From Hysterangium stoloniferum (lineage: Eukaryota; Basidiomycota; Agaricomycetes; Hysterangiales; Hysterangiaceae): DNA of 64,000 nt. Position 1 is the stretch's first letter; every line of letters begins with the position of its first letter. Location: contig WHVD01000031.1 of assembly GCA_015178975.1 (NCBI GenBank), positions 1 to 64,000 of the forward strand, in the 5' to 3' direction. A program made the position numbers and the translations under genes. This document shows, one piece after another, positions 4,318-63,790 of this stretch. The notes under the pieces were generated by a model. The model was not told the origin of the DNA, did no database searches, and worked only from the letters and a program-made list of their open reading frames with translations.

Positions 4318-4466
4318 GCTTGACACAGTAGGGAAATTTTCGAAAATCCGAAAATTAAGGTTTCTTGCTTATGCAAGCAAAAGTGACAGGCTCAACCAAA
4401 CACAAAAGTTGGTTTGTTATGCCTCCAAATTCAAGTACTTATAGTAATGTGTATTACAATTAGAAG

Positions 4467-6707: not shown

Positions 6708-7089
6708 AGTAGAGGCGTTGCGGTTGGGATTTTCCAGTCAAAATAGAAGAATTTAAAGGGTAATTACTGATTATCTATCCAGCCAGATATTTTCTGTTTC
6801 TGTTCAAATCGCCGCATTAAGGGACAGTGACCAGGTGTTTCAATATGCGGAGTCCGCCATCCTCTGCCGCACACAACAAGTCCAGGGCTGAGGTAAGTGG
6901 GAATGGCCTGATATCTCACACGTTTTCCCGTAGAAACTGAATATTGTCTATTGAAACTTTTCTTTCCCAATCACATAGCAAACTAGTAAGACTACGGATG
7001 TAACAAGTATACGGGGGACGCCTCAAGAAGTGTTCAATAAACGGATCCTCATCTCGTATAAATTTCATGGCTCCTTTCCGAAATGGATT

Positions 7090-7633
7090 TTAGAGGGAAA
7101 TGGGAGTGCAACCGACGTTGACCTACATGTCCGATTAATGGGATTTCCTTTTTGTCAGAATTTAGTACTCACAACACCGTCGAACTTAACATCCTTGCAG
7201 CATACGGGGTGTTCGGCGCAGTTTGCTCCTTTTCCGTCTCCACTGTCAAAAATATCTCAGAGAAATTACGACGAGGATGCTACGCTACAACTTACACAAG
7301 AGTGAGGGTCGTGCACTCCAACCCAATAATAGCAGTAGGATCGTCAAGGGCAATATTGAGCGGCTTCAGGAGTGCGCTCATGGGGGTGCTGCCTGCGGCT
7401 CCAACGTTCTTGCAACATTTTGGAGATCCTAAGGTGGCAGGGCTCATTAATAAATAGTTAAGTGGATTACTGGAGGATGGAGTATGACTACCTGTGTTGC
7501 ATTGAGAAGGAGTATTTGGTGATGCAACAGAAGGAGGAGTATTTGGTGATGCAACAGAAGGAGGGGTACTTGGTGGTGCAGCAGCGGTAGCGAGGAGACC
7601 GAAGACAGCAGGGACAACAAGAATGAATTTCAT
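7090..7633 (-). CDS. Class I hydrophobin H1, four exons, 125 aa
   Basis: Hydrophobins are small secreted amphipathic proteins that self-assemble at water-air interfaces and coat aerial hyphae, spores or fruiting bodies. Exons on the minus strand are 7633-7492, 7428-7296, 7242-7173 and 7122-7090. Introns are 63, 53 and 50 nt, all GT-AG. The product has a signal peptide (MKFILVVPAVFGLLA), a Pro/Ser-rich linker with two near-identical SVASPNTP blocks, and cysteines spaced C-X6-CC-X32-C-X13-C-X5-CC-X12-C-X5, which is the class I basidiomycete pattern. It ends CTPISL. A TATA box lies about 80 bp upstream of the ATG. Its closest relative is H3; H2 is the inverted partner. Intron 1 is a multiple of three without stops, so a naive frame reads through it. 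Confidence 0.9.
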
Positions 7634-7710
7634 TTTGATTTGCTGAAGAGGAAGCGATATAATGCTCAACTGTGTTGTTTTGTTGGGGAAATGTGCTCAC
7701 TCGTGGGCCT

Positions 7711-7716
7711 TTTATA
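7711..7716 (-). promoter_or_regulatory. TATA box of H1
   Basis: TATAAA on the minus strand lies about 80 bp before the H1 ATG. The same spacing occurs before H2, H3 and H4. Confidence 0.65.
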
Positions 7717-8285
7717 CTTGAAAAGATGGCTGAATATTTTTTGTTTCACATAATATGAATCAAAAATATCGCGTCAAGACGACCAACTTCAATATCCATT
7801 ATCCGGAACGTTGATCTACAAGTGATTCAATTGAAAATGGTCACGATATCAGAAAGACGGCGAGGATATTCGTTTGCCATTCGATCTCGCGCTCAAGACA
7901 ACGCTCCGCAGCGTGTGGTTCCCATTGTAACACCGCTTTTCGGCTAAATATCGGGGCCCGGGACAAGATCGCAGCGTTGCTAATACGCTCTAAGAGAAAA
8001 CAGGGTCACTCGGCGATGCTCCGACCGAGAAGGTAGAAAAATCCTAAGGATGGTCTACAGACCTAGTTACACACGTGATTATGGAAGGTGACCTCAAGCC
8101 CTGAAACAGCACGAGAGGGGTTGTAACAGAACCAGTTCAGAATCATTCAGCACCTAGGACAGCAGGATGACAAGTGATTGATAGAAAACCTTCACCGAAG
8201 TAATCTAGACGTTGACGCAGTTTGTTGCCACGGCATGACAGAACTCAGTAATAGACCCAGAATGGTGACCGGATATACTGGTTCT

Positions 8286-8854
8286 CTACTCTGAAGAGTT
8301 TCCACTGACAAATACAGTACTGCCGCCATCAGCCAGATCAGAAGAAATACCAAGGAAGCGCAGCAGCGCGCAGTCACCTTCCGGCTTGGGGGTTCCATAG
8401 CGTTGTAAAGTCGGAAGCTGTGGCAATCTGTTTCCTGTGAAGCAAATGAAAGTATTGAAACGAAGCAAAGTCACTGACACGAAAACAGACTCACTTCGTG
8501 CACAGTGGAACGTTCAACTAACGGTATAAACAAAAATTGCATTTTTACCTCTTGCAACCGGACATTACCAGATACGGACCTCGCCTTTTCCTTGGTAAAC
8601 CATGTTCTGACCATGAGAATACCCAGTTTTCCTAGAAAAGGATCTCTATAAGTCTTTGGAGGTCTTATCGGGTACTCGCCTGCCATGAAGAAGCCGAGAT
8701 CAAATGCGGGCAGGCGCCGAGAGCCGAGACTTGGTTTAGCTAAGCTCCCCAAAATTCTGACTGTGCTTGCCGTCGTCTCGAACGCTGGCCTTAACATATT
8801 CTCCATTGCTGCCGACAGTATGGCATTTACCAGTGGGAGCTCCGAGTCGGGCAC
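8286..8854 (-). CDS. Unrecognised gene candidate in the hydrophobin spacer
   Basis: Two overlapping open stretches lie between the promoters of H1 and H2. One (8854 to about 8555) contains MAGEYPIRPPKTYRDP and FLGKLGILMVRTWFTKEKA, then meets a GTAAAA-type donor after VRLQE. The second (about 8480-8286) contains NRLPQLPTLQRYGTPKPEG and ends GNSSE. They could be exons of one gene, but I cannot place the family. In duplication copy 2 the same region has an extra C near 34143 and a 10-bp insertion near 33737, both breaking the frame. This may therefore be a decaying gene or non-coding promoter spacer. Confidence 0.25.
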
Positions 8855-9203
8855 TAGTACATCCTCTACTACTGAAGTTCTTAATCAAAATCACCAAGTG
8901 ACCCTTTTTTCTCTTAGAGCGTATTCGCAGCACTGCGATCTCGTCCTGGGCCCCGATGTTTAGCCGAAAGCGGGGCTACAATGAGCCACACGCTGCGGAG
9001 TGTTCCTCGAGCAGGAGATCGAATAGCAAGCGAATATCCTCGCCATCTTGTCGCCCCATTTATAAATCAACGTTCCGGATAATGGATATTGAAGTTGGTC
9101 GTCTTGACGCGATATTTTTGATTCATATTATCTTCTCGAATAATGCTTGAATATGGAGCTTGGGAAAATCCTTGGAAAAAAAGAATTCAGCCATCTTTTC
9201 GAG

Positions 9204-9209
9204 TATAAA
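9204..9209 (+). promoter_or_regulatory. TATA box of H2
   Basis: TATAAA lies 81 bp before the H2 ATG and is followed by a C/A-rich leader (CTTCCCCAACAAAACAACAG) typical of a strongly expressed fungal gene. Confidence 0.65.
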
Positions 9210-9284
9210 AAGCCAGCGAGTGAATACACTTCCCCAACAAAACAACAGTTGAGCATTTTATCGCTTCCTCTTCAGTAAATCAAA

Positions 9285-9807
9285 ATGAAATTCGTTCTTG
9301 TTGTCCCTGCTGTCTTCGGTCTCCTCGCTGCCGCTGCTCCACCATCAAGTCCCCCTCCTTCTTCTGCTGCATCACCAAGTACTCCTCCTTCTCAATGTAA
9401 CACAGGTAGTCATACTCCATCCTCCAGTAATCCACTTTACTATTTATTAATGAGCGCTGCCACCTTAGGATCTCCAAAATGTTGCAAGAACGTTGGAGCC
9501 GCAGGCAGCACCCCCATGAACGCACTCCTGAAGCCGCTCAATATTGCCCTTGACGATCCTACTGCTATTATTGGGTTGGAGTGCACTACCCTCACTCTTG
9601 TGTAAGTTGTAGTGTAGCATCCTCATCGTAATTTCTCTGAGATATTTTTGACAGTGGAGACGGAAAAGGAGGAAACTGCGCTCAACACCCCGTATGCTGC
9701 AAGGATGTTAAGTTCGACGGTGTTGTGAGTACTAAATTCTGATAAAAAAGAAATCCCATTAATCGGACATGTAGGTCAACGTCGGTTGCACTTCCATTTC
9801 CCTCTAG
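9285..9807 (+). CDS. Class I hydrophobin H2, four exons, 118 aa
   Basis: Exons are 9285-9405, 9469-9601, 9655-9724 and 9775-9807 (357 nt in all, in frame, stop TAG). Introns of 63, 53 and 50 nt carry donors gtagtc, gtaagt and gtgagt and acceptors ending ttag, acag and gtag. The protein has a signal peptide (MKFVLVVPAVFGLLAAAA), a Ser/Pro linker, and the class I cysteine pattern C-X6-CC-X32-C-X13-C-X5-CC-X12-C, ending CTSISL. It is transcribed away from H1, with about 1.65 kb between start codons. It nearly equals H4 at 34675. Intron 1 is 63 nt and free of stops; splicing it is what restores the family spacing between Cys1 and Cys2-3. Secretion and interfacial self-assembly are inferred from the family. 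Confidence 0.92.
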
Positions 9808-9911
9808 AATCCATTTCGGAAAGGTACTATATATAATTTATTTAAGATGGAGGATCCGTCCAACATTCCTTGATGTCTTTCTCGTATACTTGTTACATCC
9901 GTAGTCTTAAA

Positions 9912-11394
9912 TTGTTCCTCTATCTGATGGAAATAATCAGCAAAGTGACGCTTCAATAGACAACGTTCTGTTTTCGTTGGAAAATACGTCAAGAGATATA
10001 CCTGGCAGAGGGTGGCAAACTCTGCATTTTGACACACCTGATCACTGATCCCTACCAATGGGACCATTTGAATCGAGAATTGCCAGGCGTTCACAGACTC
10101 TGCTTTCATTTTTCCGATTATACTATTCTGTCTGCAAATCCCAACCGCATCCTCTCGGGGGGCTAATACACAGCGAAACAAATGGGGATGATGCTGGGAA
10201 CCTTCTACTAATATGAGACTGTTTTAACCTTAGAACCAGAACCTGTTGTGCATTGCCTCCTGAGGGGTTTCATCCTGAAACCAAATTTTCCACTTCAAAG
10301 GCGTTCTTCCACAAGAGCGAAAGCAGACAAACGAGGCAACTTTTTATTTTATATTATTTTTTCAAATACCTTCAAGTGAGCACTCTTTATTGACGTTGTA
10401 TTTAAAGTGAGTCGGGGTTCCGCTATCTGAAGCCTCCTACTCCAAACCAAAATTGACAAGACGGCAAGGAGGATCGGTATCCTACGATTTCCGGATCCCA
10501 GAGCTGACTCTGAGACATGGAATAATAGAAACCATGACTCATCCCCCTGAACCCCATGACCATATCAATGAAATGTGGATCCTTTTCATTGTGCCAGGCC
10601 TAAAGGCTTGGGAGTGATTCTCAGCACTGGAAACATTACACGTCTTATATATCTTCCGGTATTAAGGATGGTGCCGAAATCAAGTTGTATAATTCAATTT
10701 GGAAAGTACTTGGAGAATTCATTAGAATATGGAATATCTCCCACACATTTTCAGAACTTTGAAGATTCTCAGAAATATTTTATATATTCTATAAACTTTA
10801 GAACATATTCTGACAAATTGGACTGGACAATTGTGTGAGGGCATAGCACATAAGCTGAAGCCAAGTCCTACCCATTCCTGGAACATCTGTGGGGTTTCCC
10901 TGGATACCCACCTTGCAGATGGGGAGTATCCTTCCCCTCTTATGTTGATTGTCATTCACTAGCTATAGGCAGGACCATGTGTTGAACTTTTGGCCATTCA
11001 GTAATAATCTCACTGTGATGACACTTGTGGGTCCTTTTGTCCCCATGGCATGTACCTGTGTCAACACTGTGCACTATCTTAGCCAGTGCAAGTCACAAGC
11101 TCAACTGACTTGATGAAGTGCCCAGCAATTCATAACCTCCCCCATTTGTAATGAGTTAACTGTAAGCTGCACTGTCAAATGGAAAGTAAGTTGATCTTAG
11201 AACAGCACCTGATTTATTTCAACAGTTTTCTCACTGATGCAGATGATTAATTAAACATTGACACAATTCAAAATTCATTTAGGTGTAGATGTTCACTCAG
11301 ACTGAGATATGTTGGCTAGTGCAGACATTATCTCTTATTTTGATTATAGGATTTCCCAGTGCTCACAATATCAATGCACAATCTGGTTACTAGG
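9912..11394. other. Intergenic tail of duplication A, no gene supported
   Basis: The sequence is present in both copies of duplication A but has no convincing frame. From about 10840 it holds a remnant with the motif AAGCTGAAGCCAAGTCC (10852-10868) that recurs in the LTR relics of this window. CpG content falls sharply to the right of about 10600. Confidence 0.5.
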
Positions 11395-13057: not shown

Positions 13058-13792
13058 TCATGTCCTGCTTGTCCGCATTTGCGACAGACCTATATTATTA
13101 GTGCCATGATACCAGATGTTGGCACCGAGAAGACCAGCAGTGAATGTTGTCACTGCATGGTGAGGAGATGATGACACTTCCAAATCAGCCCATTCAATCT
13201 CTAGAGTCTGTGATGACATTGTTTTTTCTCTACGAATGGCTTCTCACAGGTTTAGTAAAGTTCTTGCAGTTAATATAGCATGCATGACATGCTGCATTCT
13301 GATGGAGAGAAATTCACAAGTCAAGGCAAACAAACACAGTCAACTAATACTTTATGAACTGATCTAACAGAAGAAATCATTTTTCCTGAGAGTGAAAAAG
13401 ACACATGAGTTGTAAGTACAATACATAAATTGACTTTGTATGGCATACTGAAATTGTTCCATTGAATACATTTAGCAGAGAGAGCGCTAAGAAACACAAG
13501 CCATTATCACTATCATTGAGTTTATATGATGTGTGAAGTCACCGATAAGACCAACACAATATAAGACCACTGTGAAGATCTCAATATTTGAACATATAAT
13601 AACTCTGATAATATGAGGCATTACCATCCCTAAACAAAATTGACACGAGACCAGATCTGCTGAATTGAGCTTTATACATTACATATAAGTGTGAAGTAAT
13701 TACTGTTGTAAGTGCAGAGCACCCACCATCATCTCTACTCTTGTAAAGAGTTAGCAGCAGGATTACTGGGAAGACGGCTTGTAAATCGTGAT
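13058..13792 (-). pseudogene. DUF6533-like copy A, 3' half (split by element 2)
   Basis: This is the C-terminal half of a multi-exon gene that continues at 19062-19999. On the minus strand it encodes ILFRDG (part of the conserved RDG-x-LY region of the family) near 13625 and the C-terminal block MQHVMHAILTARTLLNL near 13270. That block is cut by TGA at 13244-13246, where copies B, C and F have CGA (Arg). The copia insertion at 13793 separates the halves, so the gene is dead twice over. The family is fungal integral membrane proteins of unknown function; my assignment rests on motifs, not on a search. Confidence 0.7.
13788..13792. other. Target site duplication, left copy (GTGAT)
   Basis: GTGAT directly before the left LTR equals the five bases after the right LTR (19057-19061). 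Confidence 0.92.
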
Positions 13793-14153
13793 TGTTGAAG
13801 ACAAAAGGCACCGCATATATGTGGCAGGGTCAACATATTTGGGGACTGTCTGAATAATGGTGATACCGGTGCGGTAACAACATGATCGGTCATCACAATC
13901 AGGCTCCACTCGTCCACACGTCTCACATATGAGCACATGGTCCTTTTATTTATGTAGAATATATAAAGGGATAACCTACATAGCTTAACCTCAGTCCGTT
14001 ATACTTATACGAGACTGAGGTGAGCACAGAACGATCCTTTCTCTCTTAGTATATGCGCTTACTGTATACAATAGCTCTTCTTAGGTACACATTATATGAG
14101 TCCGTTATACTTATACGAGACTGAGCTCTTCTTAGGGACTATATATTTTAACA
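13793..14153 (+). repeat. 5' LTR of element 2
   Basis: It starts TGTTGAAG and ends TTTTAACA. It contains a TATA-like TATATAAAGGG near 13970. A block beginning AGTCCGTTATACTTATACGA occurs twice inside the LTR; the first copy is flanked by CTCAGTC and GACTGAG and can form a hairpin. Confidence 0.95.
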
Positions 14154-14164
14154 GGTTATGGGCC
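14154..14164 (+). other. Primer binding site of element 2
   Basis: GGTTATGGGCC directly follows the LTR end and matches the internal initiator tRNA-Met priming site of the other two copia elements. Confidence 0.8.
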
Positions 14165-14206
14165 TTTGTCCCTACTGAGACACTTACCCAATTTTTTTCG
14201 GCCACC

Positions 14207-17200
14207 ATGTCTATGCCGGCCTCTACCCCGTCCATCCCTCTGTTGCGCACGTCTGTTGTTTATGCAGATACTAAGCTCAATAAGGATTTGGGAAACTACT
14301 CTGAATGGTACCGCAGTGCTCGGCACTACCTCACGGTCACTGGCCTCATTTCCTATGCCCTTGGCGCCGCCCCCTCCCCAGTATCTTCCGATCCTCTTGC
14401 TATGCAGAACTGGGCTGCAAATGATGGCCTCGCCCATGCCTTGATCCTCTCGACCCTGTCCAGGGCTGAGTGGGACTTCGCCGAGCCTATTCAGGGTGCG
14501 AAGCCCTGTTGGGACGCCCTTCTGCTTCGCCATCGGAACGAGGGGCCCATTCGCCAGGTGCAACTGATCCAGGAGGCCCTCACTCTCCAGTGTTCCAAGT
14601 CGATCTCTCTCTCTACTACCGCCTCTCAAATATGCCGTGCTATCTCCCGTGCATTCGAGATGGGCCAGCTCACTGAGGACCTTTTTAAGTGCATTGCCTT
14701 ATTGAACTCCCTTGGGGACTTTCCCCATTTACGCTCCTTGATCACACGAGACCTTTCTGAGTCCTCTGCATCTACCCCTTACACTTCCGCTCGCATTATC
14801 CTCCTGCTCGAAAATGAGCAGCGCCTTCTTGCATCTGATACCCAGCGTACTGCGCCTGTGGACGCCATCGCCCTTTCAACACAATCCGCTTCCCCAAAAC
14901 GTCCTGTTGTTACCTGTAGCAACCCGAATTGCCGCAAACAGGGACACACGATCGCGTACTGTGTTTCAGCTGGGGGGGGGATGGCTGGCAAAAGCATTGA
15001 AGAAGGCAAAGCTGCCCGGCGCAGGGATCTGGAAGCTAAGAAATCCGGAAATTCTACACCTGCACCTGCAGGTAAGTTCCCCATCAGCATCACAGGTGCG
15101 AACGGTCAAGTCTTTACCGCATATATGGACACGCCCCTACCAAATGATGCAGCTTTCGCTGGTACCGTGATTGAAGAGCCTGCCATGGTGATGACGCCTT
15201 CTGATCAGGCTGAATATGCTGGATGGATAGCCACTAATGATAACCCACATGTCACCGTAAATTGGAACCTACATAGTTCTCCAGTGGGCACATTGGCGCT
15301 GGCCACATCGGCCCCTCCCCTTCTCAGCTCACCTCCCGTTCCACACCCCTTCTGGCTTGATACAGGTGCCAGTATACATGTATCACCAGACCATACCGAC
15401 TTTATCTCCTTACGCACCATATCCCCACGCCCTGTCACAGGTCTGGGGGGGTCATCGGTCATGGCTATCGGATTGGGTGATGTTCACCTTCGCATTGAGA
15501 ATGGGACCCACATTATTCTCCGTGATGTTCTTTACATCCCTACTGCATCCGTTCGACTTATCTCTGTTAGGTGTATCACTAGAGATTCCAATGTGACTGC
15601 TCATTTCAGTCATTCCTCATGCTGGCTCACGAGTCCTTCTGGTGCAACCATTGCGCAAGGCTCACTACTTCCCCACAGGAACTTATATTCCTTAACATTA
15701 CAGTCTACTGCCTCTGACCAGGTTTTCTTCTCCCATGGTCACCCTGATCTTGCCACATGGCACCGTCGTTTGGGTCACGCGAATTATCAATCCATCCTGG
15801 ATATGGTCAAAAATGGTCTCATCAAAGGTGTGCCACTCTCCACTCACCAGCATCCACCCAAGTGTGATTTTTGCATCCTCGGAAAGCAGACCAAAAATTC
15901 TGTACCCAAGGTGAGAGCACAGGGGGATGGGCATAAGGCTACAAGGCACTTGGAAAAGGTCTGGGTGGATTTGGCAGGTCCTAATGATGTTGCATCCCGC
16001 ACAGGATCATTATATATTATGAATATTATTGATGATTACTCACATTACCCCTGGTCAATCCCGCTAACCCATAAAAGTGATGCTTTTCCGGCGCTCCAGA
16101 CCTGGGAACGTGCACGGGAGGTGGAGACCGGCCTGAAAGTCGGAGTGTACAGGACAGACAATGGCGAATTAAGAAGTAATCGAATGCAACAGTGGCTCGA
16201 GTCTCGTGGGACCCGGCACGAATACACAGCACCTTATACATCTGCGCATATAGGCCGTGTCGAGCGCATACACCGTACTTTAATGGGGAAGGCACGTACT
16301 ATGCGTATATATGCTGGCTTACCTGCCCAATTTTGGGAGGAATTTTACCTTACTGCGACTCATGTACACGCAAAAACTACTACAGTTCAACTTCAGAAAC
16401 AATCACCTTGGGAACTTTGGCATGGCCGGTCACTGGATGTCACTTATTTACGGGAGGCAGGGTGTCGGGCATTCGTCCTCATCCTCAGCAAACATAACCC
16501 CAAAGTATACGAGCGATCAATCGAATGTATTCTTCTAGGATACGAACCCAACATGAAGGCGTATCGATGCTACGACCCAAAGACGAATTTGATTTATGTC
16601 TCTTACCACGTGCGATTCCTTGAAAGTCACGATGGCCACATTAGGCCAAGCCCAGGCTCTAATGGTACATTACCACCACCGCACATCCCATCACCACCCC
16701 CGTTGGATGACTCTGAGCCGATCATTCCTACACCTAGTACCTCCAATGTGCCACCAGTTCTTCCTACCCCAGGTACCGATTCGATACCCCCTGTCCCTCC
16801 TGTCCCAGCACTCCCTGTGCCCACTGATATTAACATCCGTCGGTCCAATCGCATAGCCACGCGCGTTGCAGATCGCCCCTCCCGGGTAGCTACTGCTGTC
16901 CAGGCCTCCATTGACAGTGCAGCCCATGTGCGTGCACAGAAAGAACAGCGTCGCCTTGCTCTTCAGCAATTGCATGCAGACGTTGCTGACATTCCCGAGG
17001 ACACAGAGGAGCCGGGGGGGCTGGCCGAGTCCCATGAGGACGTATTAGCTGCGATCTCTAGTGGTTCAGTGCCCTATGAGATGGACCCACTTACCTGGGA
17101 GGAGGCCAGGGATTCACCTCATGGTGATGCTTGGCGTCTCAGCTACCAGGAGGAACTTGCATCTCTGAAAAGTATGGGAGTATACAGGTTAGTTCCACTG

Positions 17201-18658
17201 TCTGATGTCCCCTCGGGCACCAAGATCCATAAGGGCAAGCCCATTTTTCATGTCAAACGGAATGCCCTAGGTGAGGTGACTCGGCGCAAGACTAGGCTGG
17301 TGTTTCGGGGGTACGAGCAGGTTCATGGCCGGGATTACACTAAAACGACCTCACCTACAGCTCGGATGGAGTCGTGGCGACTTCTCCTGCATATCGCAGC
17401 ACATTTTGGTTGGGATGCACAACAGATTGATGTCAAGACCGCTTTCCTGTATGGCCTACTCCCTGACGATGAGACTCAATACATGTATCAACCAGCGGGC
17501 TTTGAAGAAGCAGGAAAGGAGTCTTGGGTTTGGCATCTTATCCGGGGTTTGTATGGCATGAAACAAGCTGGCCGCATCTGGAATCGGACCATGCATGACA
17601 AGATGGTGGAGTGGGGGTTCACACAATTGTCCAGTGAATCATGTATATATTACCACCACACCTCGCAGGGCACAATAATCGCTGCTGTCCATGTGGACGA
17701 CTTTTTGTCCATTGCATCCTCCCAGGCCGAGAATGAACGATTCAAAGCACAGATGCGAGAAGCTTGGACCATTTCTGACCTCGGGGAAGTCAGTTTTGTC
17801 GTCGGTATTGCGGTTGAATGGGACCGGTCAAGTCACACCGTTAAACTCTCCCAGACTGCACTTATCGATCGGATTATTTCCCAGTTTGGCCAGTCTGACT
17901 CTTCTCCTCTCTCCATCCCCATGGTCCCTGGCCTGAAATTGTGGCGCGTCCTTCGATCTGCCCTTCCCCCAGATGATCAGGAGCACCTCTCTAAACTCCC
18001 ATATCGCTCTCTCGTCGGGTCCCTCCTCTATTTAGCTATTTCCACCCGGCCCGACATCTGTTATGCTGTCCAGCAACTCTCCCAGTACCTTGACTGCTAC
18101 TCTTACGAACACTGGAATGCTGCCGTTCGGGTCATACACTACCTCAAAGGCACTCGGACCATGCAACTCCACCTTGGGGGCCCTTCCCCCATACAGCTGG
18201 TGGGCCACAGTGATTCAGATTGGGCCAACTGCCTCGACACGCGTAGGAGTGTGGGGGGGTTTGCATTCTCCTTGGGCTCTGGCGTCGTGTCTTGGAATGC
18301 CCGAAAACAAAAAACAGTTGCTGCGTCTTCCTGCGAAGCCGAGTACATCGCAGCCTTCACTGCCGCAAAAGAAAATGCATGGTTGCGGTCAGTCTTTTCT
18401 GGTATTAACCTCCCTTTTAGGGACCCTACAGTAATCCATTGTGACAATAACGCCGCCATTTGCCTCTCAGAGGATCCACTACTACACGATCGAGTCAAGC
18501 ACATCGACATAAAATACCACTTTATTCGAGAATGTGTAGAGTCCGAAGCACTAAAACTCAAGTACATAAACACTAAGAACAACCTTGCTGACATATTCAC
18601 TAAGGCACTAGAGAGCCCACAATTTGTGCGACTTCGAGGACTCCTAGGCCTACAATAG
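14207..18658 (+). CDS. Copia gag-pol polyprotein of element 2, 1483 aa
   Basis: I choose the ATG at 14207 because it follows GGCCACC, an ideal Kozak context. The frame is open upstream to 14096, but that codon lies inside the LTR. Domains by rough residue are Gag with a CX4CX4HX4C zinc knuckle (about 236-251), aspartic protease DTGAS (about 384), integrase HHCC finger from 518 and catalytic Asp, Asp and Glu near 586, 649 and 684, Pro-rich linker (about 820-880), RT with HVDD (about 1161), and RNase H with SDSDW (about 1335), EAEY and DNNAA (about 1411), ending in ADIFTKAL. No stop or frameshift is present. The product would be cut by its own protease and would copy and integrate element RNA. 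Confidence 0.95.
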   Translation: MSMPASTPSIPLLRTSVVYADTKLNKDLGNYSEWYRSARHYLTVTGLISYALGAAPSPVSSDPLAMQNWAANDGLAHALILSTLSRAEWDFAEPIQGAKPCWDALLLRHRNEGPIRQVQLIQEALTLQCSKSISLSTTASQICRAISRAFEMGQLTEDLFKCIALLNSLGDFPHLRSLITRDLSESSASTPYTSARIILLLENEQRLLASDTQRTAPVDAIALSTQSASPKRPVVTCSNPNCRKQGHTIAYCVSAGGGMAGKSIEEGKAARRRDLEAKKSGNSTPAPAGKFPISITGANGQVFTAYMDTPLPNDAAFAGTVIEEPAMVMTPSDQAEYAGWIATNDNPHVTVNWNLHSSPVGTLALATSAPPLLSSPPVPHPFWLDTGASIHVSPDHTDFISLRTISPRPVTGLGGSSVMAIGLGDVHLRIENGTHIILRDVLYIPTASVRLISVRCITRDSNVTAHFSHSSCWLTSPSGATIAQGSLLPHRNLYSLTLQSTASDQVFFSHGHPDLATWHRRLGHANYQSILDMVKNGLIKGVPLSTHQHPPKCDFCILGKQTKNSVPKVRAQGDGHKATRHLEKVWVDLAGPNDVASRTGSLYIMNIIDDYSHYPWSIPLTHKSDAFPALQTWERAREVETGLKVGVYRTDNGELRSNRMQQWLESRGTRHEYTAPYTSAHIGRVERIHRTLMGKARTMRIYAGLPAQFWEEFYLTATHVHAKTTTVQLQKQSPWELWHGRSLDVTYLREAGCRAFVLILSKHNPKVYERSIECILLGYEPNMKAYRCYDPKTNLIYVSYHVRFLESHDGHIRPSPGSNGTLPPPHIPSPPPLDDSEPIIPTPSTSNVPPVLPTPGTDSIPPVPPVPALPVPTDINIRRSNRIATRVADRPSRVATAVQASIDSAAHVRAQKEQRRLALQQLHADVADIPEDTEEPGGLAESHEDVLAAISSGSVPYEMDPLTWEEARDSPHGDAWRLSYQEELASLKSMGVYRLVPLSDVPSGTKIHKGKPIFHVKRNALGEVTRRKTRLVFRGYEQVHGRDYTKTTSPTARMESWRLLLHIAAHFGWDAQQIDVKTAFLYGLLPDDETQYMYQPAGFEEAGKESWVWHLIRGLYGMKQAGRIWNRTMHDKMVEWGFTQLSSESCIYYHHTSQGTIIAAVHVDDFLSIASSQAENERFKAQMREAWTISDLGEVSFVVGIAVEWDRSSHTVKLSQTALIDRIISQFGQSDSSPLSIPMVPGLKLWRVLRSALPPDDQEHLSKLPYRSLVGSLLYLAISTRPDICYAVQQLSQYLDCYSYEHWNAAVRVIHYLKGTRTMQLHLGGPSPIQLVGHSDSDWANCLDTRRSVGGFAFSLGSGVVSWNARKQKTVAASSCEAEYIAAFTAAKENAWLRSVFSGINLPFRDPTVIHCDNNAAICLSEDPLLHDRVKHIDIKYHFIRECVESEALKLKYINTKNNLADIFTKALESPQFVRLRGLLGLQ

Positions 18659-18683
18659 GTATAGAATACAGGAGGAGTACTGC

Positions 18684-18695
18684 GGTGAGGAGGAG
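18684..18695 (+). other. Polypurine tract of element 2
   Basis: GGTGAGGAGGAG directly precedes the TG of the 3' LTR. Confidence 0.7.
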
Positions 18696-19056
18696 TGTTG
18701 AAGACAAAAGGCACCGCATATATGTGGCAGGGTCAACATATTTGGGGACTGTCTGAATAACGGTGATACCGGTGCGGTAACAACATGATCGGTCGTCACG
18801 ATCAGGCTCCACTCATCCACACGTCTCACATATGAGCACATGGTCCTTTTATTTATGTAGAATATATAAAGGGATAACCTACATAGCTTAACCTCAGTCC
18901 GTTATACTTATACGAGACTGAGGTGAGCACAGAACGATCCTTTCTCTCTTAGTATATGCGCTTACTGTATACAATAGCTCTTCTTAGGTACACATTATAT
19001 GAGTCCGTTATACTTATACGAGACTGAGCTCTTCTTAGGGACTATATATTTTAACA
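18696..19056 (+). repeat. 3' LTR of element 2
   Basis: It is 361 bp like the 5' LTR. It differs from the left copy only at positions matching 13858, 13892, 13897 and 13912. Confidence 0.95.
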
Positions 19057-24014: not shown

Positions 24015-24755
24015 TTTATATATGAAGGTGTAATGGGCCGATAACTGTAAGAGTATAGATATTACTGTAGAGAATGAGAAAAATCGAATTGATCTTTGGA
24101 ACATTCGACTACGACTTTATAAGACTCCAAAAGAAAAGGCCGTCCGTCCTATCCGATTCAACTCGGATGTAGCTGTTCATATTGATCGATTTGCAAAGCC
24201 CGGCTTGGCCAACTTCGACCAATTTGACCTCGCAGCCATGGACGCCATACAACATAGGTCGCCTCGATATTGGCAGCTAGGCTAGGTTGTTATGTATATA
24301 AATCACGCGGCGCACCGGCCACCCATCCCATCATCAACTTGCTTGTCTCACGTTCGCAGTAAACTTACGCACAGTCTATCACCAGGCGCTTGCAACGAGT
24401 TCAATCTAGGCCTGTGTTCAAACGCTGCTTCAATAATCAACTCTCTAGTCTGATGTTCTTTGGTGACAGGCTCTACTTATGTTGTGATGCTTTGAGGACG
24501 CTCGGGGCTTTGCTGTGATAATACTGTGTGGTATATTGATGTTATCCCATTTATCCCAAAGGAGTGGCGGGCCGTGTTACAGTAAAGTCATTTGGGAAAT
24601 TCCAAATACAACTGAAATGACAGTAAGTAAACTACTACAGTAAAGTAAGAGAAATATCCGTACTTCTCAGTGAGTGATAAACCTTCACTGAGAGACTACG
24701 CGGTCGATTTCCATTCCGAGTTCAGCAACGACCAGGATTATACAGTCGTCGTCTA
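24015..24755. other. Upstream flank of copy B
   Basis: No coding frame is supported. On the minus strand a TTTATATACATA box lies near 24293-24304, about 280 bp before the copy B start codon; the same box occurs upstream of copy F (near 58445). This could be the family promoter. Confidence 0.4.
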
Positions 24756-25180
24756 TCCACCATCGTCTTGCTGTATGGACATCGACAAATCCGATCCAGC
24801 AAGGAAACTTGCTGGCCTCGGTACTCACTCCCAACCGTATACTACCCACCACTGGGTCACCAAGATTCTCAGAGTTCGATGCACGCGTAGGTCGGCACGA
24901 ATCGTCTATCTTATCACTCCCTTTGGACCAGGCTCAGTAGTAGACTCCTAATCAGTAATTCTGGATGGGCGAAACGGTCGGGGTAGCGGTATCCCCCTGA
25001 TGAGAGCTCTCGTCGGCTCGAAACCGTTACTATCCCGTTTCCCCTAGCCACCCTCTACACTAGCTGACAAAGTTCTATCTTCGGAGACAACTGTTTGCGG
25101 CGAGTGATAAGGTGGTGGTCCGCCCAGCGGCGCTCTGGTGGACGCTGGTGACCATTGCGTTGTCATGGTCACCTGGCTAA
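24756..25180 (+). mobile_element. 425-bp hammerhead-ribozyme element, copy 1 (retrozyme-like)
   Basis: This non-coding sequence differs from the inverted copy at 45346-45770 at only three of 425 positions (24827, 24905, 25010), with no indels. The flanks of the two copies are unrelated. Compared with paralogous locus 58870-58900, which lacks it, copy 1 interrupts the sequence between about 24742 and 25191. It contains a type III hammerhead ribozyme, a perfect 8-bp hairpin with a GAAA tetraloop (24796-24815), a 9-bp hairpin near the end (25147-25173), and TCCACCA at the start able to pair with TGGTGGA at 25136-25142. No protein or LTR is visible. A non-autonomous element spread via RNA is my inference. 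Confidence 0.75.
24973..25028 (+). ncRNA. Hammerhead ribozyme, type III, copy 1
   Basis: All conserved parts are present in order. Stem III is AACGG (24973-24977) pairing with CCGTT (25024-25028). The cleavage triplet is GTC, with predicted cut after C24979. Stem I is GGGG (24980-24983) with CCCC (24993-24996), closed by a 9-nt loop. The core is CTGATGA (24997-25003). Stem II is GAGC (25004-25007) with GCTC (25016-25019), closed by an 8-nt loop, followed by GAAA (25020-25023). Helices I and II are closed and III is open, which defines type III. GGAT (24963-24966) and ATCC (25032-25035) may extend stem III. The RNA would self-cleave and, as a multimer, could yield unit-length circles. Confidence 0.92.
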
Positions 25181-25560
25181 TTTACTGCATTCTAGCTTAC
25201 CGAAGGTAGCTTATGTAACGCTTCTACAGGCCCCGTACCTGAGCAGAGAGGGGTTCCCAGCAGTGCTGCCTGTTCACATCCCACGTGCCTATATTATAGT
25301 TCTTATGGAGAGACGATCCCACGCATCTTTCATAGACCGGCGCTTAGAGTTAATACTGCCCTATTGCGACTTTGATGATGTGATTGTAACGATTTGCAAT
25401 TGATGACAAAGTAAGAAGATATTTCCTTCCTAGGGTGACACATGTGGATTAAATTTTTTTGTAACCAAAAACTTTATTTCCCCACCCCTTCATTCCACAT
25501 GTTTTAATGAAATTTGAACACTCGTAAGTAAGTAGTAAAGAAAAGATTGGAGCAGAATTT
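25181..25560. other. No gene seen
   Basis: The first part (to 25312) matches the end of duplication B at 58890-58995. The rest has no supported frame. Confidence 0.5.
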
Positions 25561-29330: not shown

Positions 29331-29787
29331 AGAGGACGGGTCGCAGTAGCCCCCAACAGATATCAGCGAACCAGCAGCTCTCTCACTATCACTACCGGCT
29401 TTAACGTGTCCATTGAAGGTCGGGACGTTATTCACGCCCCCTACCCCTCACGCCGATACAACTCACCGAGCCTATTGCGACATCCAGACTGGCTCCGTCA
29501 GTGCTTGACGGGGTCGGTGGGGACTGGTTTTGTCGCTGACTTTGTGATGGACGCTGTGGGATGATGGGAAGTGGAATGACCTGACCTTGTCCGATGGGGA
29601 GCCTTTCAATAATGCAACTTGTTATCGTGCAAGATGGTGGCTGTTGGGGAGAAGTGAGACTGGAGTAGAAGGTGGCTTCGTGGATGGGAAGAAAACGCAA
29701 GGGAAGACGCTGAGCTTGATTTCGGAGCCCATAACCAGATGCGACGAGTCGATTGATGGATTGTTGACACTGTTTGGCTATGACTGA
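29140..29787 (+). pseudogene. Unrecognised gene-like region with repeated module
   Basis: A peptide with GGFIDGKKTR and GKTLSL is encoded near 29160-29215 and again near 29655-29715 (GGFVDGKKTQ, GKTLSLISEPITRCDESI). A third diverged version lies at 30180-30275 (VEEIKSREKTLSLMAVPISR then CMESI). The shared pattern suggests a domain repeated within one ancient gene. The frames are broken and I do not recognise the family. At one codon the copies show CGA (29197), CAA (29698) and TGA (45237), as expected from CpG decay. Confidence 0.3.
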
Positions 29788-30393
29788 GTACTTGGTCTTG
29801 CTTTGTTTTTTTTACAGGACAACTGGAGGTCGCACGCCATCGTTCGGTTACGATTGGGGTAAAAAAACAATGAAAAAGCCAAAGCGCAGATAGGGCCTGT
29901 ACAAAAACTCGAAATACACTCCGTCTGCAATTTTTGCTGCATGCCTACAGTACCCGGCGGATTTGAATCTAATTCTACATTTTTATCTTTCGTTCTGCTG
30001 CCACAAACTGTTTTCTACCCTGTCAGTGAGACCATTGTGAACTAGTTCCGGCTGCGAAGGCACGACCCAGACCTCCCTTTTGATTTCATTGGAGAAAGTC
30101 CCCTGCGGGCCACAACTGCAGTCCGATGCGGGGTCCCTTAATAATACGACGAGTAGGAGGAGGGTGTCTGTCACTGTGAAAAATGGGGGTGCGAACGCTG
30201 TCGAGGAGATTAAGTCAAGGGAGAAAACGTTGAGCTTGATGGCGGTGCCTATAAGCAGGTGCATGGAATCGATTGTTGCTTTTTTTTATCGTTTGCCACT
30301 AGTTTTTGTACTAGTGTCGTGTCACTTCGTTTACTTACAGCACAATCAAAGAGCCCATGAACAATCTTTCGGTAACAGTCGAGGTCGAAAATA

Positions 30394-31490: not shown

Positions 31491-32471
31491 TTTGTAAGTA
31501 TATGGAGTTGTAACGAGGCGATAGGCGTAAGATGCTGTAAGAATGTAGATATCAATGCAGAGAATGTAAATGCAACCGAATTAAGCTTTGGCCACTGGAC
31601 TATGATCTTATAGGACCCCGGAAAGAAAGGGCGGTTCTATGGACTCGGATCTAGCTGTTCAGAGTGTGCCAGATCAGACAGGCGGCACACCTTCCAAATG
31701 TTCACCAATTGCCACCCCTCCAATATCTGGCTCAATATTGAAGCCGTACCTTATACATAACACATATTACTATAAGACTATATAGTAGCGAAGCCATCTT
31801 GACCTGACAGCCTTAGACGCCCATATCCGCCCATGTAAAATAGACTCGATGCGTGCTTGAACAATGATAGATATCGGTGGAGTGCCGGTTGGTGAGCAAT
31901 TCGATAAATGTGCCGCCTGTCTGACGACGTACGAACGGGCGATCAATAGTTAGGTAATACCTTGATAGTCAACCATGCCCAAAGCATGACAAAACACTAA
32001 CATCTACACTATGTGGACGGTTCACCATTAGCTCTGGCTCGCGGTGACTGACTCGTGCGTAGGGAGGAGTCTCGCAGTATGCATTGAAGTTGAGGCGTTG
32101 CGGTTGGGGTTTTCCAGCCAAAATGGAAGAATTTAAAGGATAATTGTTGATTATATATACAGCCAGATGTTTTCTGTTTCTGTTCAAATGGCCGCATTGA
32201 GGGACAATGACCAGGTGTCTCAAGATGTGGAGTCCGCCATCCTCTGCCGGACATATCAAATCCAGGACTGAGGTAGGCCTGATATTTCACATGTTTTCTT
32301 GTAGAAACTAAATATTGACTATTGAAACTTTTCTTTGCCATTCATTAGAATCGCATAGGAAATGAGTTTAAGACTACGGATGTAACAAGTACAAAGGGGA
32401 CACCTCAAGGGGTGTTCAATGGACTGATCTTCATCTTGTATAAATTATATCGCACCTTTCCGAAATGGATT

Positions 32472-33018
32472 TTAGAGGGAAATGGGAGTGCAACCGACGT
32501 TGACCTACATGTCCGATTAATGGGATTTCCTTTTTGTCAGAATTTAGTACTCACAACACCGTCGAACTTAACATCCTTGCAGCATACGGGGTGTTCGGCG
32601 CAGTTTGCTCCTTTTCCGTCTCCACTGTCAAAAATATCTCAGAGAAATTACGACGAGGATGCTACGCTACAACTTACCCAAGAGTGAGGGTCGTGCACTC
32701 CAACCCAATAATAGCAGTAGGATCGTCAAGGGCAATATTGAGCGGCTTCAGGAGTGCGTTCATGGGGGTGCTGCCTGCGGCTCCAACGTTCTTGCAACAT
32801 TTTGGAGATCCTAAGGTGGCAGGGCTCATTAATAAATAGTAAAGTGGATTACTGGAGGATGGAGTATGACTACCTGTGTTGCATTGAGAAGGAGTATTTG
32901 GTGATCCACCAGAAGGAGGAGTATTTGGTGATGCAACAGAAGGAGGAGGGGAACTTGGTGGTGCAGCAGCGGCAGCGAGGAGACCGAAGACAGCAGGGAC
33001 AACAAGAACGAATTTCAT
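32472..33018 (-). CDS. Class I hydrophobin H3, four exons, 126 aa
   Basis: Exons on the minus strand are 33018-32874, 32810-32678, 32624-32555 and 32504-32472; introns are again 63, 53 and 50 nt. The protein has a signal peptide (MKFVLVVPAVFGLLA), a Ser/Pro linker with a changed repeat (SVASPNTPP then SGGSPNTP), and the complete class I cysteine set, ending CTPISL. A base change at the second donor (CTTGG before gtaagt) replaces the Val of H1 with Gly after TLTL. The TATA box is at 33096-33101. It is the direct counterpart of H1 and head to head with H4. Role as for the family: secreted surface-coating protein. Confidence 0.9.
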
Positions 33019-33095
33019 TTTGATTTGCTGAGAAGGAAGTGATAAAATGCTCAACTGTGTTGTTTTGTTGGGGAAATGTGCTCACTCGTGGGCCT

Positions 33096-33101
33096 TTTAT
33101 A
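33096..33101 (-). promoter_or_regulatory. TATA box of H3
   Basis: TATAAA on the minus strand at the same distance from the ATG as in H1. Confidence 0.65.
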
Positions 33102-33659
33102 CTTGAAAAGATGGCTGAATATTTTTTGTTTCACATAATATGAATCAAAAATATCGCGTCAAGACGACCAACTTCAATATCCATTATCCGGAACGTTGAT
33201 CTATAAGTGATTCAGTTGAAAATGGTCACGATATCAGAAAGACGGCGAGGATATTCGTTTGCCATTCGATCTCGCGCTCAAGACAACGCTCCGCAGCGTG
33301 TGGTTCCCATTGTAACACTGCTTTTCGGCTAAATATCGGGGCCCGGGACAAGATCGCAGTGTTGCTAATACGCTCTAAGAGAAAACAGGGTCACTCGGCG
33401 ATGCTCCGACCGAGAAGGTAGAAAAATCCTAAAGATGATCTACAGACTTAGTTATATACGTAATTATGGAAGGTGACCTCAAGCCCTGAAACAGCACGAG
33501 AGGGGTTGTAACATAACCAGTTCAGAATCATTCAGCACCTAGGACAGCAGGATGACAAGTGATTGATAGAAAACCTTCACCGAAGTAATCTAGACGTTGA
33601 CGCAGTTTGTTGCCCTGGCATGACAGAACTCAGTAATAGACCCAGAATGGAGACCGGAT

Positions 33660-34250
33660 ATACTGGTTCTCTATTCTGAAGAGTTTCCACTGACAAATAC
33701 AGTACTGCCGCCATCAACCAGATCAGAAAAAATACCATGATTGTCGGAGGAAGCGCAGCAGCGCGCAGTCACCTTCCGGCTTGGGGGTTCCATAGCGTTC
33801 TCAAGTCGGAAGCTGTGGCAATCTGTTTCCTGTGAAGCAAAGGAAAGTATTGAAACGAAGTAAAGTCACTAACACGAAAACAGACTCACTTCATGCACAG
33901 TGGAACGTTCAACTAACGGTATAAACGGAAATTGCATTTTTACCTCTTGCAACCGGACATCACCAGACACAGACATGGCCTTTTCCTTGGTAAACCATGT
34001 TCTGACCATGAGAATGCCCAGTTTTCCTAGAAAAGGATCTCTATAAGTCTTTGGAGGTCTTATCGGGTACTCACCTGCCATGAAGAAGCCGAGATCAAAT
34101 GCGGGCAGGCGCCGAGAGCCGAGACTTGGTTTAGCTAAGCTCCCCCAAAATTCTGACTGTGGTTGCCGTCGTCTCGAACGCTGGCCTTAACATATTCTCC
34201 ATTGCTGCCGACAGTATGGCATTTATCAGTGGGGGCTCCGAGTCGGGCAG
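33660..34250 (-). pseudogene. Broken counterpart of the spacer gene candidate
   Basis: This corresponds to 8286-8854. MAGEYPIRPPKTYRDP is kept near 34081, but an extra C in a C run near 34143 and a 10-bp insertion near 33737 shift the frame. Confidence 0.3.
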
Positions 34251-34593
34251 TACATCTACTACTGAAGTTCTTAATCAAAATCACCAAGTGACCCTTTTTT
34301 CTCTTAGAGCGTATTCGCAGCACTGCGATCTCGTCCCGGGCCCCGATATTTAGCCGAAAGCGGGGCTACAATGAACCACACGCTGCGGAGTGTTTCTCGA
34401 GCAGGAGATCGAATAGCAAACGAATATCCTCGCCATCTTGTCGCCTCATTTATAAATCAACGTTCCGGATAATGGATATTGAAGTTGGTCGTCTTGACGC
34501 GATATTTTTGATTCATATTATCTTCTCGAATAATGCTTGAATATGGAGCTTGGGAAAATCTTTGGAAAAAAAGAATTCAGCCATCTTTTCGAG

Positions 34594-34599
34594 TATAAA
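34594..34599 (+). promoter_or_regulatory. TATA box of H4
   Basis: TATAAA lies 81 bp before the ATG, as in H2. Confidence 0.65.
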
Positions 34600-34674
34600 A
34601 AGCCAGCGAGTGAATACACTTCCCCAACAAAACAACAGTTGAGCATTTTATCGCTTCCTCTTCAGTAAATCAAA

Positions 34675-35197
34675 ATGAAATTTGTTCTTGTTGTCCCTGC
34701 TGTCTTCGGTCTCCTCGCTGCCGCTGCTCCACCATCAAGTCCCCCTCCTTCTTCTGCTGCATCACCAAGTACTCCTCCTTCTCAATGTAACACAGGTAAT
34801 CATACTCCATCCTCCAGTAATCCGCTTTACTATTTATTAATGAGCGCTGCCACCTTAGGATCTCCAAAATGTTGCAAGAACGTTGGAGCCGCAGGCAGCA
34901 TCCCCATGAACGCACTCCTGAAGCCGCTCAATATCGCCCTTGACGATCCTACTGCTATTATTGGGTTGGAGTGCACTACCCTCACTCTTGTGTAAGTTGT
35001 AGTGTAGCATCCTCATCGTAATTTCTCTGAGATATTTTTGACAGTGGAGACGGAAAAGGAGGAAACTGCGCTCAACACCCCGTATGCTGCAAGGATGTTA
35101 AGTTCGACGGTGTTGTGAGTACTAAATTCTGATAAAAAAGAAATCCCATTAATCGGACATGTAGGTCAACGTCGGTTGCACTTCCATTTCCCTCTAG
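34675..35197 (+). CDS. Class I hydrophobin H4, four exons, 118 aa
   Basis: Exons are 34675-34795, 34859-34991, 35045-35114 and 35165-35197. Introns and signals match H2 except that the first donor is gtaatc. The protein differs little from H2 (for example GSIPMNALL in place of GSTPMNALL), keeps all eight cysteines at class I spacing, and ends CTSISL. It is transcribed away from H3, which lies on the opposite arm of the inverted repeat. It is probably secreted and assembles on the hyphal surface, by family analogy. Confidence 0.92.
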
Positions 35198-36753
35198 AAT
35201 CCATTTCGGAAAGGTACTATATATAATTTATTGAAGATGGAGGATCCGTCCAACATTCCTTGACGTCTTTCTCGTATACTTGTTACATCCGTAGTCTTAA
35301 ATTGTTCCTCTATCTGATGGAAATAATCAGCAATGTGACGCTTCAATAGACAACGTTCTGTTTTTTGGAAAATACGTCAAGAGATATACCTGGCAGAGGG
35401 TGGCAAACTCTGCATTTTGACGCACCTGATCACTGATCCCTCCCAATGGGACCATTTGAATGAGAATTGCCAGGCGTTCACAGACTCTGCTTTCATTTTT
35501 CCGATTATACTATTCTCTCTGCAAATCCCAACCGCATCCTCTCGGGGGGCTAATACACAGCGAAACAAATGGAGATGATACTGGGAACCTTCTACTAATA
35601 TGAGACTGTTTTAACCTTAGAACCAGAACCTGTTGTGCATTGCCTCCTGAGGGGTTTCATTCTGAAACCAAATTTTCCACTTCAAAGGCGTTCTTCCACA
35701 GGAGCGAAAGCAGACAAACGAGGCAACTTTTTATTTTATATTATTTTTTCAAATACCTTCAAGTCAGCACTCTTTATTGACGTTGTATTTAAAGCTCGTC
35801 GGGCTTCCGCTACCTGAAGCCTCCTACTCCACACCAAAATTGACAAGACGGCAAGGAGGATCGGTATCCTACGATTTCCGGATACCAGAGCTGACTCTGA
35901 GACATGGAATAATAGAAACCATGACTCATCCCCCTTAACCCCATGACCATATCAGTGAAATGTGGATCCTTTTTATTGTGCCAGGCCTAAAGGCTTGGGA
36001 GTGAAACATTCCACGTCTTATATATTCTGGTATTAAGGATGGTGCCGAAATGTTGTATAATTCAATTTGGAAAGTACTTGGATAATTCATTAGAATATGT
36101 AATATTTCCCATACATTTTCAGAGTTTTGAAGATTTTCAGAAATATTTTATATATTCTATAAACTTTAGAACATATTCTGACAAATTGGACCTGACAATT
36201 GTGTGAGGGCATAGCACATAAGCTGAAGCCAAGTCCTACCCATTCCTGGAACATCTGTGGGTTTTCCCTGGATACCCATCTTGCAGATGGGGAGTATCCT
36301 TCCCCTCTTATGTTGAATGTCATTCACTAGCTATAGGCAGGACCATGTGTTGAAGTTTTGGGAATTCAGTAATAATCTCACTTGTGGGTCCCCTTTTGTT
36401 CCCATGGCATGTACCTGTGTCAACACTGTGTACTATCCTAGCCAGTGCAAGTCACAAGCTCAACTGACTTGATTCAGTGCCCAGCAATTCATAACCTCCC
36501 CCATTTGTAACGAGTTAACTGTAAGCTGCACTGTCAAATGGAAAGTAAGTTGATCTTAGAACAGCACCTGATTAATTTCAACAGTTTTCTCACTGATACA
36601 GATGATTAATTAAACATTGACACAATTCAAAATTCATTCAGGTGTAGATGTTCACTCAAACTGAGATATGTTGGCTAGTGCAGACATTATCTCTTATTGT
36701 GATTATAGGATTTCCCAGTGCTCATAATATCAATGTACAAGCTGGTTGCTAGG

Positions 36754-45345: not shown

Positions 45346-45770
45346 TTAGCCAGGTGACCATGACAACGCAATGGTCACCAGCGTCCACCAGAGCGCCGCT
45401 GGGCGGACCACCACCTTATCACTCGCCGCAAACAGTTGTCTCCGAAGATAGAACTTTGTCAGCTAGTGTAGAGGGTGGCTAGGGGAAACGGGATAGTAAC
45501 GGTTTCGAGCCGACGCGAGCTCTCATCAGGGGGATACCGCTACCCCGACCGTTTCGCCCATCCAGAATTACTGATTAGGAGTCTACTACTGAGCCTGGTC
45601 CAAAGGGAGTGATAAGATAGTCGATTCGTGCCGACCTACGCGTGCATCGAACTCTGAGAATCTTGGTGACCCAGTGGTGGGTAGTATACGGTTGGGAGCG
45701 AGTACCGAGGCCAGCAAGTTTCCTTGCTGGATCGGATTTGTCGATGTCCATACAGCAAGACGATGGTGGA
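45346..45770 (-). mobile_element. 425-bp hammerhead-ribozyme element, copy 2 (inverted)
   Basis: This is the reverse complement of 24756-25180 with three substitutions and no indels. The flanking sequence is that of duplication C. Partner site 29786-29801 reads CTTGGTCTTGCTTTG, and here the insert lies between CTTGGTCTT and GCTTTG (insert 45347-45771), so the empty site is visible to the base. I see no target duplication. Both copies share the same ends, which argues for a defined element rather than random fragments. Confidence 0.75.
45498..45553 (-). ncRNA. Hammerhead ribozyme, type III, copy 2
   Basis: Core, three stems and GTC cleavage triplet are identical to copy 1. The single difference is T to G in loop II (position 45516), which does not affect core or stems. 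Predicted cleavage follows the base at 45547 on the minus strand. Confidence 0.92.
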
Positions 45771-58158: not shown

Positions 58159-58990
58159 TTTGTATATGAAGGTGTAATAGGCCGATAACTATGTGATAAT
58201 GTAAGAGTATAGATATTGATGTAGAGAATGGAAAAAAATCGAATTGATCTTTGGGACATTCGACTACGACCTTATAAGACCCCCGAAATAAAAGGCCGTC
58301 CTATCGGAGTCGACTCGGATGTAGCTGTTCATATTGATCGATTTGTAAAGCCCGGCTTGGCCAACTTCAACCAATTTGACCTCGCAGTCGTGGACGCCCA
58401 TACAACATAGATCGCCTCGATCTTGGCAGCTAGGATAAGCTATTATGTATATAAGTCACACGGCGCACCGGCCACCCACCCCATCAACTTGCTTTGACTC
58501 ACGTTCAGAGTAAACTTACGCACAATCTATAACCAGGCGCTTGCAACGAGTTCAATCTAGAGAAGGAAGGTCTGTGCTCAAACTCTACTTCAATAATCAA
58601 CTCACTAGTCTGATGTTATTTGGTGACAGGCTCTACTTATGTTGTAATTTTTTGAGGACGGTCGCGGCCTTGCTGTGATCATACTGTGTGGTATATTGAT
58701 GTTATCCTATTTATCCTAAAGGGGTGGCGGGCAGTGATAAAGGCATTTGCGAGATTCTAAATACAACTGAAGTGACAGCAAGTAAACTATTACTGTAAAG
58801 TAAGAGAAATATGCGTACCTCTTAGTGAGTGATAAACCTTCGACTACGCGGTCGATTTCCAGTAGTTCACGACCAGAACTATACTAGCTTACCAAAGGTA
58901 GCTTATGTAACGCTTCAGGCCGTTGATCCCGTATGAGCAGAGAGGCGTCCCTGCAGTCCTGCCTAATCACATCACACGTGCCTATAGGAG

Positions 58991-63751: not shown

Positions 63752-63775
63752 TTTGAAACTAAGCGTAGTGTAGCG

Positions 63776-63790
63776 CGGGGCCCAATAACC
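63776..63790 (-). other. Primer binding site of element 3
   Basis: GGTTATTGGGCCCCG abuts the 5' LTR. Apart from one extra T it equals the site of element 1. Confidence 0.75.

Follow-up and report, generated by a model that had tools for sequence, protein, structure and literature searches.

A short, high-copy mobile element with a hammerhead ribozyme motif in the genome of the fungus Hysterangium stoloniferum

A 425-bp non-coding unit that is present twice in a 64,000-nt stretch of the Hysterangium stoloniferum genome (the window; bases 1-64000 of contig C235) is a member of a genome-wide, high-copy interspersed family with fixed ends, which inserts without duplicating target bases and carries a hammerhead ribozyme motif in its least variable part. 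The family is best read as a non-autonomous element that is most likely moved by rolling-circle (Helitron2-type RepHel) machinery and whose plus strand encodes a hammerhead RNA that appears to be selected, a reading with about an even chance (roughly 0.5) of being right. Genomic hammerheads have mostly been linked to retrotransposons, as outlined in PMC6155905. A fungal element of high copy number whose single units insert without duplication and bear a little-varying hammerhead would add another kind of mobility to this picture. It would also allow the use of a ribozyme to a transposon to be tested in a mushroom for which both occupied and empty sites are available. Features of the window are collected in Table 1.

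Table 1. Features of the two element copies and their empty counterparts (positions in the window)
Feature	Position	Strand	Basis or remark
Mobile element copy 1, 425 bp, TCCACC...GGCTAA	24756..25180	+	sequence comparison, genome search
Mobile element copy 2, 425 bp	45346..45770	-	3 mismatches to copy 1
Type III hammerhead motif of copy 1, predicted cut after 24979	24973..25028	+	RF00008 match 24972-25029
Type III hammerhead motif of copy 2	45498..45553	-	alignment to copy 1; segment match
5' terminus TCCACCA, inverted repeat near 3' end	24756..24762	+	sequence, alignment
Subterminal inverted copy of 5' terminus, TGGTGGA, 38 nt from 3' end	25136..25142	+	aligned copies
3' hairpin GGTGACCAT-N9-ATGGTCACC, then TGGCTAA	25147..25173	+	alignment
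5' arm of predicted 21-pair long-range RNA stem	24757..24780	+	RNAalifold, 56-pair model
3' arm of predicted 21-pair long-range RNA stem	25093..25115	+	RNAalifold, 56-pair model
Predicted RNA hairpin, GAAA (GNRA) loop	24796..24815	+	RNAalifold, 56-pair model
Predicted RNA hairpin, UUCG loop	25071..25092	+	RNAalifold, 56-pair model
Unoccupied paralogue of copy 1 site, junction ~58884	58791..58986	+	also lacks 12 nt on each side
Unoccupied paralogue of copy 2 site, junction ~29798	29687..29916	+	paralogue alignment

A dispersed family with fixed ends

The two inverted copies in the window share identical ends and differ at 3/425 positions (element positions 72, 150 and 255), just as originally predicted. 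Their flanks beyond the 425 nt are unalike, which argues against a longer duplicated segment. When the genome (111,116,353 bases in 554 contigs) is searched with the element, all 40 scored candidates, out of 187, span positions 1-424 or 1-425 at 95-100% identity; the family thus extends far beyond the two sites, contrary to what a misassembly would give. Pattern scans allowing up to three mismatches return 151 matches to the 5' end (control 0), 147 to the ribozyme segment (control 0; 71 exact among the 100 listed) and 119 to the 3' end (control 6), which supplies the genome-wide count that the original prediction called for and places the family at more than 100 sites. The 3' count falls below the 5' count partly because a longer subfamily of 460-472 nt (L112, L084, L083) deviates at the 3' end. 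Host flanks common to L011/L012, L018/L021/L025-L027, L022/L023 and L083/L084 mark duplicated segments. The view of the element as mobile, recently active and non-coding is supported.

The listed units are single. A listed 5' end could be assigned to 52 of the 56 exact 3' ends, at a distance of 409-485 bp in 50 cases and with other insertions in between in two; two more 3' ends belong to full-length copies in the genome search. Among these listed sites there is little or no 5' truncation. The 100 listed ribozyme matches (of 147) include no same-strand neighbours within 6 kb, and the sole same-strand pair within 1.5 kb among the 100 listed 5' ends (of 151) is a local duplication. Tandem copies, for which the original prediction proposed a search, are thus absent from the listed ribozyme matches and 5' ends. 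A double 5' end at C464 is a local 34-bp tandem duplication; wide end pairs at C531 and C148, considered as a longer autonomous version, are copies split by other inserts. At L061 (1514-2777) an element copy is interrupted by about 1.26 kb with the appearance of a solo LTR, and at L062 (1332-2952) by an insert whose reading frames resemble those of a Tc1/mariner transposase.

The element begins with 5'-TC and ends with CTAA or CTAT-3', shortly preceded by an 8-9-bp hairpin whose eighth pair is A-T in one subfamily, T-A in another and unpaired in other copies. The GGTGGA of the subterminal inverted repeat is intact in 31/35 aligned copies, deleted in L030 and L108 and altered by one base in L020 and L084.

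Insertion without target-site duplication

Paralogues of both host loci lack the element, in agreement with the original prediction. At the copy 2 site, comparison with the paralogue reveals a clean junction; the copy 1 site gives no information on precision because a further 12 bases to either side are missing from its paralogue. Joined flanks of 25 sites from the 28-copy target set described below were searched against the genome, with up to 40 candidates scored per list, and empty sites were located among the listed matches for eight. Seven of the eight record insertion without target-site duplication, if the last T of the CTAT subfamily is counted as the element's, and the eighth (L050) has lost 11 target bases. 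In L041, L034, L051, L046 and L063, taking the element out of the filled site restores the empty site at the junction; some flanks have small gaps elsewhere. In L056 and L052, from the subfamily ending in GGCTA, the filled site holds one extra T. This T is assigned to the element because it follows GGCTA in 11/12 subfamily copies (7/8 in the 28-copy target set described below, 4/4 in L108-L111); a 1-bp duplication is the alternative.

Target bases were analysed in 28 copies with distinct flanks, obtained from 30 rows by dropping two that share the L052 flanks; seven copies (L083, L084, L108-L112) lie outside this set. Exact flank repeats total 7, against 12 expected from re-paired flanks. The base before the element is A in 10, G in 10, T in 6 and C in 2 copies, and the base after it T in 16, A in 4, G in 5 and C in 3, so that the A|T target rule of canonical Helitrons (Helitron1) fails in this set. 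The CTAT subfamily accounts for part of the T excess at +1 (p 0.01; 7/8 of its copies, against 9/20 CTAA copies), and there is no strong target-base rule. Palindromic targets were considered and rejected (mean rank 0.47; 3/28 at or below 0.05).

The duplication-free pattern looks unlike both target-primed SINE insertion and insertion by LTR integrases. Since the latter leave a target-site duplication, the suggestion that copia elements in the window act as mobilizers finds no support in these sites or in the deficit of flank repeats.

The hammerhead motif and its variation

The predicted hammerhead motif was recovered: copy 1 has a catalytic core and three stems in type III arrangement (III AACGGU/ACCGUU, I GGGG/CCCC, II GAGC/GCUC), with cleavage predicted after the GUC at 24979. 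In a search of 541 bases the RF00008 profile matches with 31.9 bits (E 5.5e-5), short of the Rfam gathering score of 48.5; the same search yields no match on the minus strand, and an Rfam scan of the window finds no family at its gathering score. A whole-genome RF00008 profile search returns nothing at E 0.001 and is uninformative, as control genomes are equally silent. In 35 aligned copies, CUGANGA and GUH are present in 35/35 and G12 in 33/35, and L043 lacks part of stem I.

The hammerhead falls within the stretch of the element that varies least. Non-CpG changes number 8 in 42 ribozyme sites (0.19 per site) and 242 in 325 sites elsewhere (0.74 per site); variable non-CpG sites number 5/42 and 94/325, respectively (Fisher p 0.025). 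The 56-nt ribozyme window ranks 7th lowest of 370 for variation, the lowest window starting one base off, and the ten core sites have accumulated no changes (P 0.039 for random sets); these tests are modest, and the related copies are non-independent. CpG sites behave alike in both parts (2.79 changes per site in the ribozyme vs 2.75 elsewhere), and 149/160 CpG changes are of the C>T or G>A kind that decay of methylated cytosines would produce.

A strand-specific RNA fold

The plus-strand RNA is predicted to fold at -160.4 kcal/mol (z -4.68), with 0/100 shuffles as good; z is -2.58 for the minus-strand RNA (0/100) and -2.61 for single-stranded DNA (1/100). RNAalifold applied to 35 copies predicts a stem between positions 2-25 and 338-360, the GAAA and UUCG hairpins and the 3' hairpin, with a covariation term of just -0.82 kcal/mol and both-sided changes in 7/117 pairs. 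The 21-pair stem is maintained largely via G-U changes.

A 56-pair model, which joins the alignment helices to the hammerhead and was partly built from the same sequences, a circumstance that favours it, pairs 99.2% of 1884 cells, compared to 29-44% when slid. Its covariation score is reached by 0/500 shuffles and its both-sided changes at four pairs by 2/500, whereas the number of pair types, reached by 325/500, lends the model no support. Among 23 both-sided cells, 17 fall on one pair of the GAAA hairpin (34 distinct copies, 17 with A-U and 17 with G-C) and may be a single event, five are stem III CpG changes, and one is in a lone copy. Two of the four pairs are the stem III CpG changes and carry little weight, and a third, changed in a single copy, fails to pair in two more; covariation support thus comes mainly from one pair. 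Together, the fold scores and the 56-pair model suggest that the RNA of the element is itself under selection.

In a model that omits tertiary contacts, the ribozyme fold lies about 17 kcal/mol above the best unconstrained fold of the whole RNA. With such a gap two alternative folds are likely, and cleavage would need to take place co-transcriptionally or to lean on tertiary contacts.

Proposed rolling-circle mobilization with a transcript that may take part

In the preferred reading, RepHel machinery supplied in trans would recognize the unit by its defined 5' end and by the hairpin at its 3' end, move it as DNA and insert it without duplication of target bases. The plus strand would be transcribed into a folded RNA that contains a type III hammerhead and would probably matter to the spread of the element; self-cleavage might serve to trim RNA made from a circular DNA stage into unit-length pieces. 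A transcript is proposed to take part because movement of DNA alone does not explain the low variation of the ribozyme.

Exact empty sites, paired 5' and 3' ends, the end structure, including the A-T or T-A eighth pair of its hairpin, and Rep matches in the genome all argue for a rolling-circle route. The genome holds at least 151 Helitron_like_N matches (150 of 342 candidates scored), and one 1912-aa frame contains both Helitron_like_N (Rep) and PIF1 domains. Several Helitron_like_N frames measure 1,700-1,923 aa, and some lie near contig ends or about 7.2 kb apart (C153, C63), which suggests tandem or subtelomeric Helitrons.

Other observations count against the rolling-circle route. The two RepHel loci read run into repeats that mask their boundaries; their matches to the element do not exceed short words, and neither emerged as a partner with matching ends. 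A single element copy lies within 12 kb of one of the 150 listed Rep matches, judged from 100 of the 151 5' ends and 92 of the 119 3' ends. The lack of an A|T target, a hairpin just 7 nt from the end and the deletion of the subterminal repeat in 2/35 copies also fit poorly, and low ribozyme variation is not predicted by DNA-only mobility. A bolder version, in which the family represents a new class of element whose rolling-circle DNA circle is transcribed into multimers, cut to unit length by the hammerhead and dependent on this RNA for amplification, is rather doubtful.

Alternative routes of spread

An RNA-mediated route is a serious, if somewhat unlikely, possibility: a viroid- or retrozyme-like RNA would be circularized after hammerhead cleavage and ligation, copied into DNA, perhaps circular, and inserted at a fixed junction with no duplication, e.g., by a tyrosine-recombinase retroelement. 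It draws on the plus-strand fold, which beats all 100 shuffles and is stronger than that of the minus strand or of single-stranded DNA, on the GAAA and UUCG loops, the G-U-preserved stem and the covariation score, and on the position of the ribozyme within the least variable window. Against it, the element is bounded at 1/425 rather than at the predicted cut at 224/225, head-to-tail copies are absent from the listed sites and the minus strand lacks a hammerhead match; a lone genomic unit cannot by itself give a unit-length cleaved RNA, and the ribozyme fold is not the best one. The circular or multimeric RNA intermediate of the original prediction meets the same two obstacles, the position of the ends and the lack of head-to-tail copies among the listed sites, while the strand-specific fold and the low ribozyme variation leave room for an RNA stage.

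It is improbable that the hammerhead is an inert passenger of an ordinary non-autonomous Helitron. A Helitron copies anything between its own ends, CpG sites in the ribozyme vary as they do elsewhere, G12 is lost in 2/35 copies and the RNA has a more stable fold than that of the ribozyme, all as expected of a passenger; the lower non-CpG variation and the unchanged core sites, within the modest power of tests on related copies, speak against it.

Very improbable is a SINE moved by LINE machinery, e.g., a relative of the Agaricomycete Alu-like megB1: size, interspersion and non-coding nature fit, as does a B-box-like GTTCGATGC at 24874-24882. Against it, target-site duplications and a tail in the flanks are missing, 5' truncation is little or absent among the listed exact 3' ends, no tRNA is found at 24600-25400, no small-RNA family scores at gathering level in the window, and 37 loci, 32 of them with flanks longer than 1 kb, contain no match at gathering score to any Rfam family, those of rRNA included. 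The presence of megB1 in Agaricomycetes, which counts for a SINE, is described in PMC10627285.

Comparison with known systems

The ends and duplication-free insertion resemble the Helitron2 description more closely than that of canonical Helitrons (PMC4289320), which fit less well because the AT rule fails here. Helitron2-/HINE-type elements such as FoHeli of Fusarium, as described in PMC5148889, share with the family fixed ends, a 5'-end sequence that recurs asymmetrically in inverted form close to the 3' end and, in some, end hairpins; their 3' inverted repeats lie about 20-40 bp from the terminus, and one group is without an established insertion preference. The family has insertion free of target-site duplication (7/8), the asymmetric TIR TCCACC/GGTGGA and an end hairpin. 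Beyond the type as portrayed there, it adds a little-varying hammerhead RNA, and the two RepHel loci read revealed no autonomous element that shares its ends. The mushroom Helitrons HELPO1 and HELPO2 (PMC4289320) have a comparable 5'-T[C/G], a CTRR-like 3' end (here in part of the family), a subterminal hairpin and no target-site duplication; they are reported to insert at AT and to measure 1.5-13.7 kb, whereas the present element follows no AT rule and measures 0.4-0.5 kb.

Plant LTR retrozymes are likewise non-coding, with a type III hammerhead and self-paired RNA, but are described with LTRs, a primer site, a 4-bp target-site duplication and two ribozymes (PMC7761336). The element is a single short unit with one ribozyme and neither LTRs nor target duplication, which bears out the original distinction from these retrozymes. 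Metazoan non-LTR retrozymes are also non-coding hammerhead units of a few hundred bases, but in the account of PMC7229834 are tandem and of type I, unlike the single type III units here. In the relevant passages of PMC4918198, on retrozymes, Helitrons are named solely as a comparison for rolling-circle replication.

Hammerhead literature that touches Basidiomycota includes PMC5040776 and PMC10886601. The Hammerhead_3 annotations of Pleurotus ostreatus (PMC5040776) place type III hammerheads in a mushroom genome, as here; the passages on them list five loci and mention no mobile element. The megB1 repeat (PMC10627285; also cited through a reference entry in PMC3918722) is a short non-coding repeat of mushroom genomes too, but is characterized as dimeric, Alu-like and common in the rDNA spacer IGS1, a comparison made by description only. 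An earlier description of the family, above all through kinship with megB1, may exist beyond the open-access literature compared; the combination of a short non-coding unit, a self-cutting RNA motif and spread free of target-site duplication appears unlike the ribozyme-carrying families considered here.

Other repeats in the window

Segments 6630-11332 and 32010-36691 share stretches of 266-300 nt, about 25.4 kb apart and 89-98% identical, and each contains inverted repeats; by sequence they are two copies of a larger repeat. Copia-like polyprotein frames lie at 448-4368, 13790-18992 and 59471-63817, two of them unbroken (1,306 and 1,527 codons). The frame at 13790-18992 is flanked by 300-nt direct repeats, 98% identical, which are probably its LTRs. 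For the copia frame at 61133-63817, the top matches among those with a named organism are to Gymnopilus and Cyclocybe, with Agrocybe lower.
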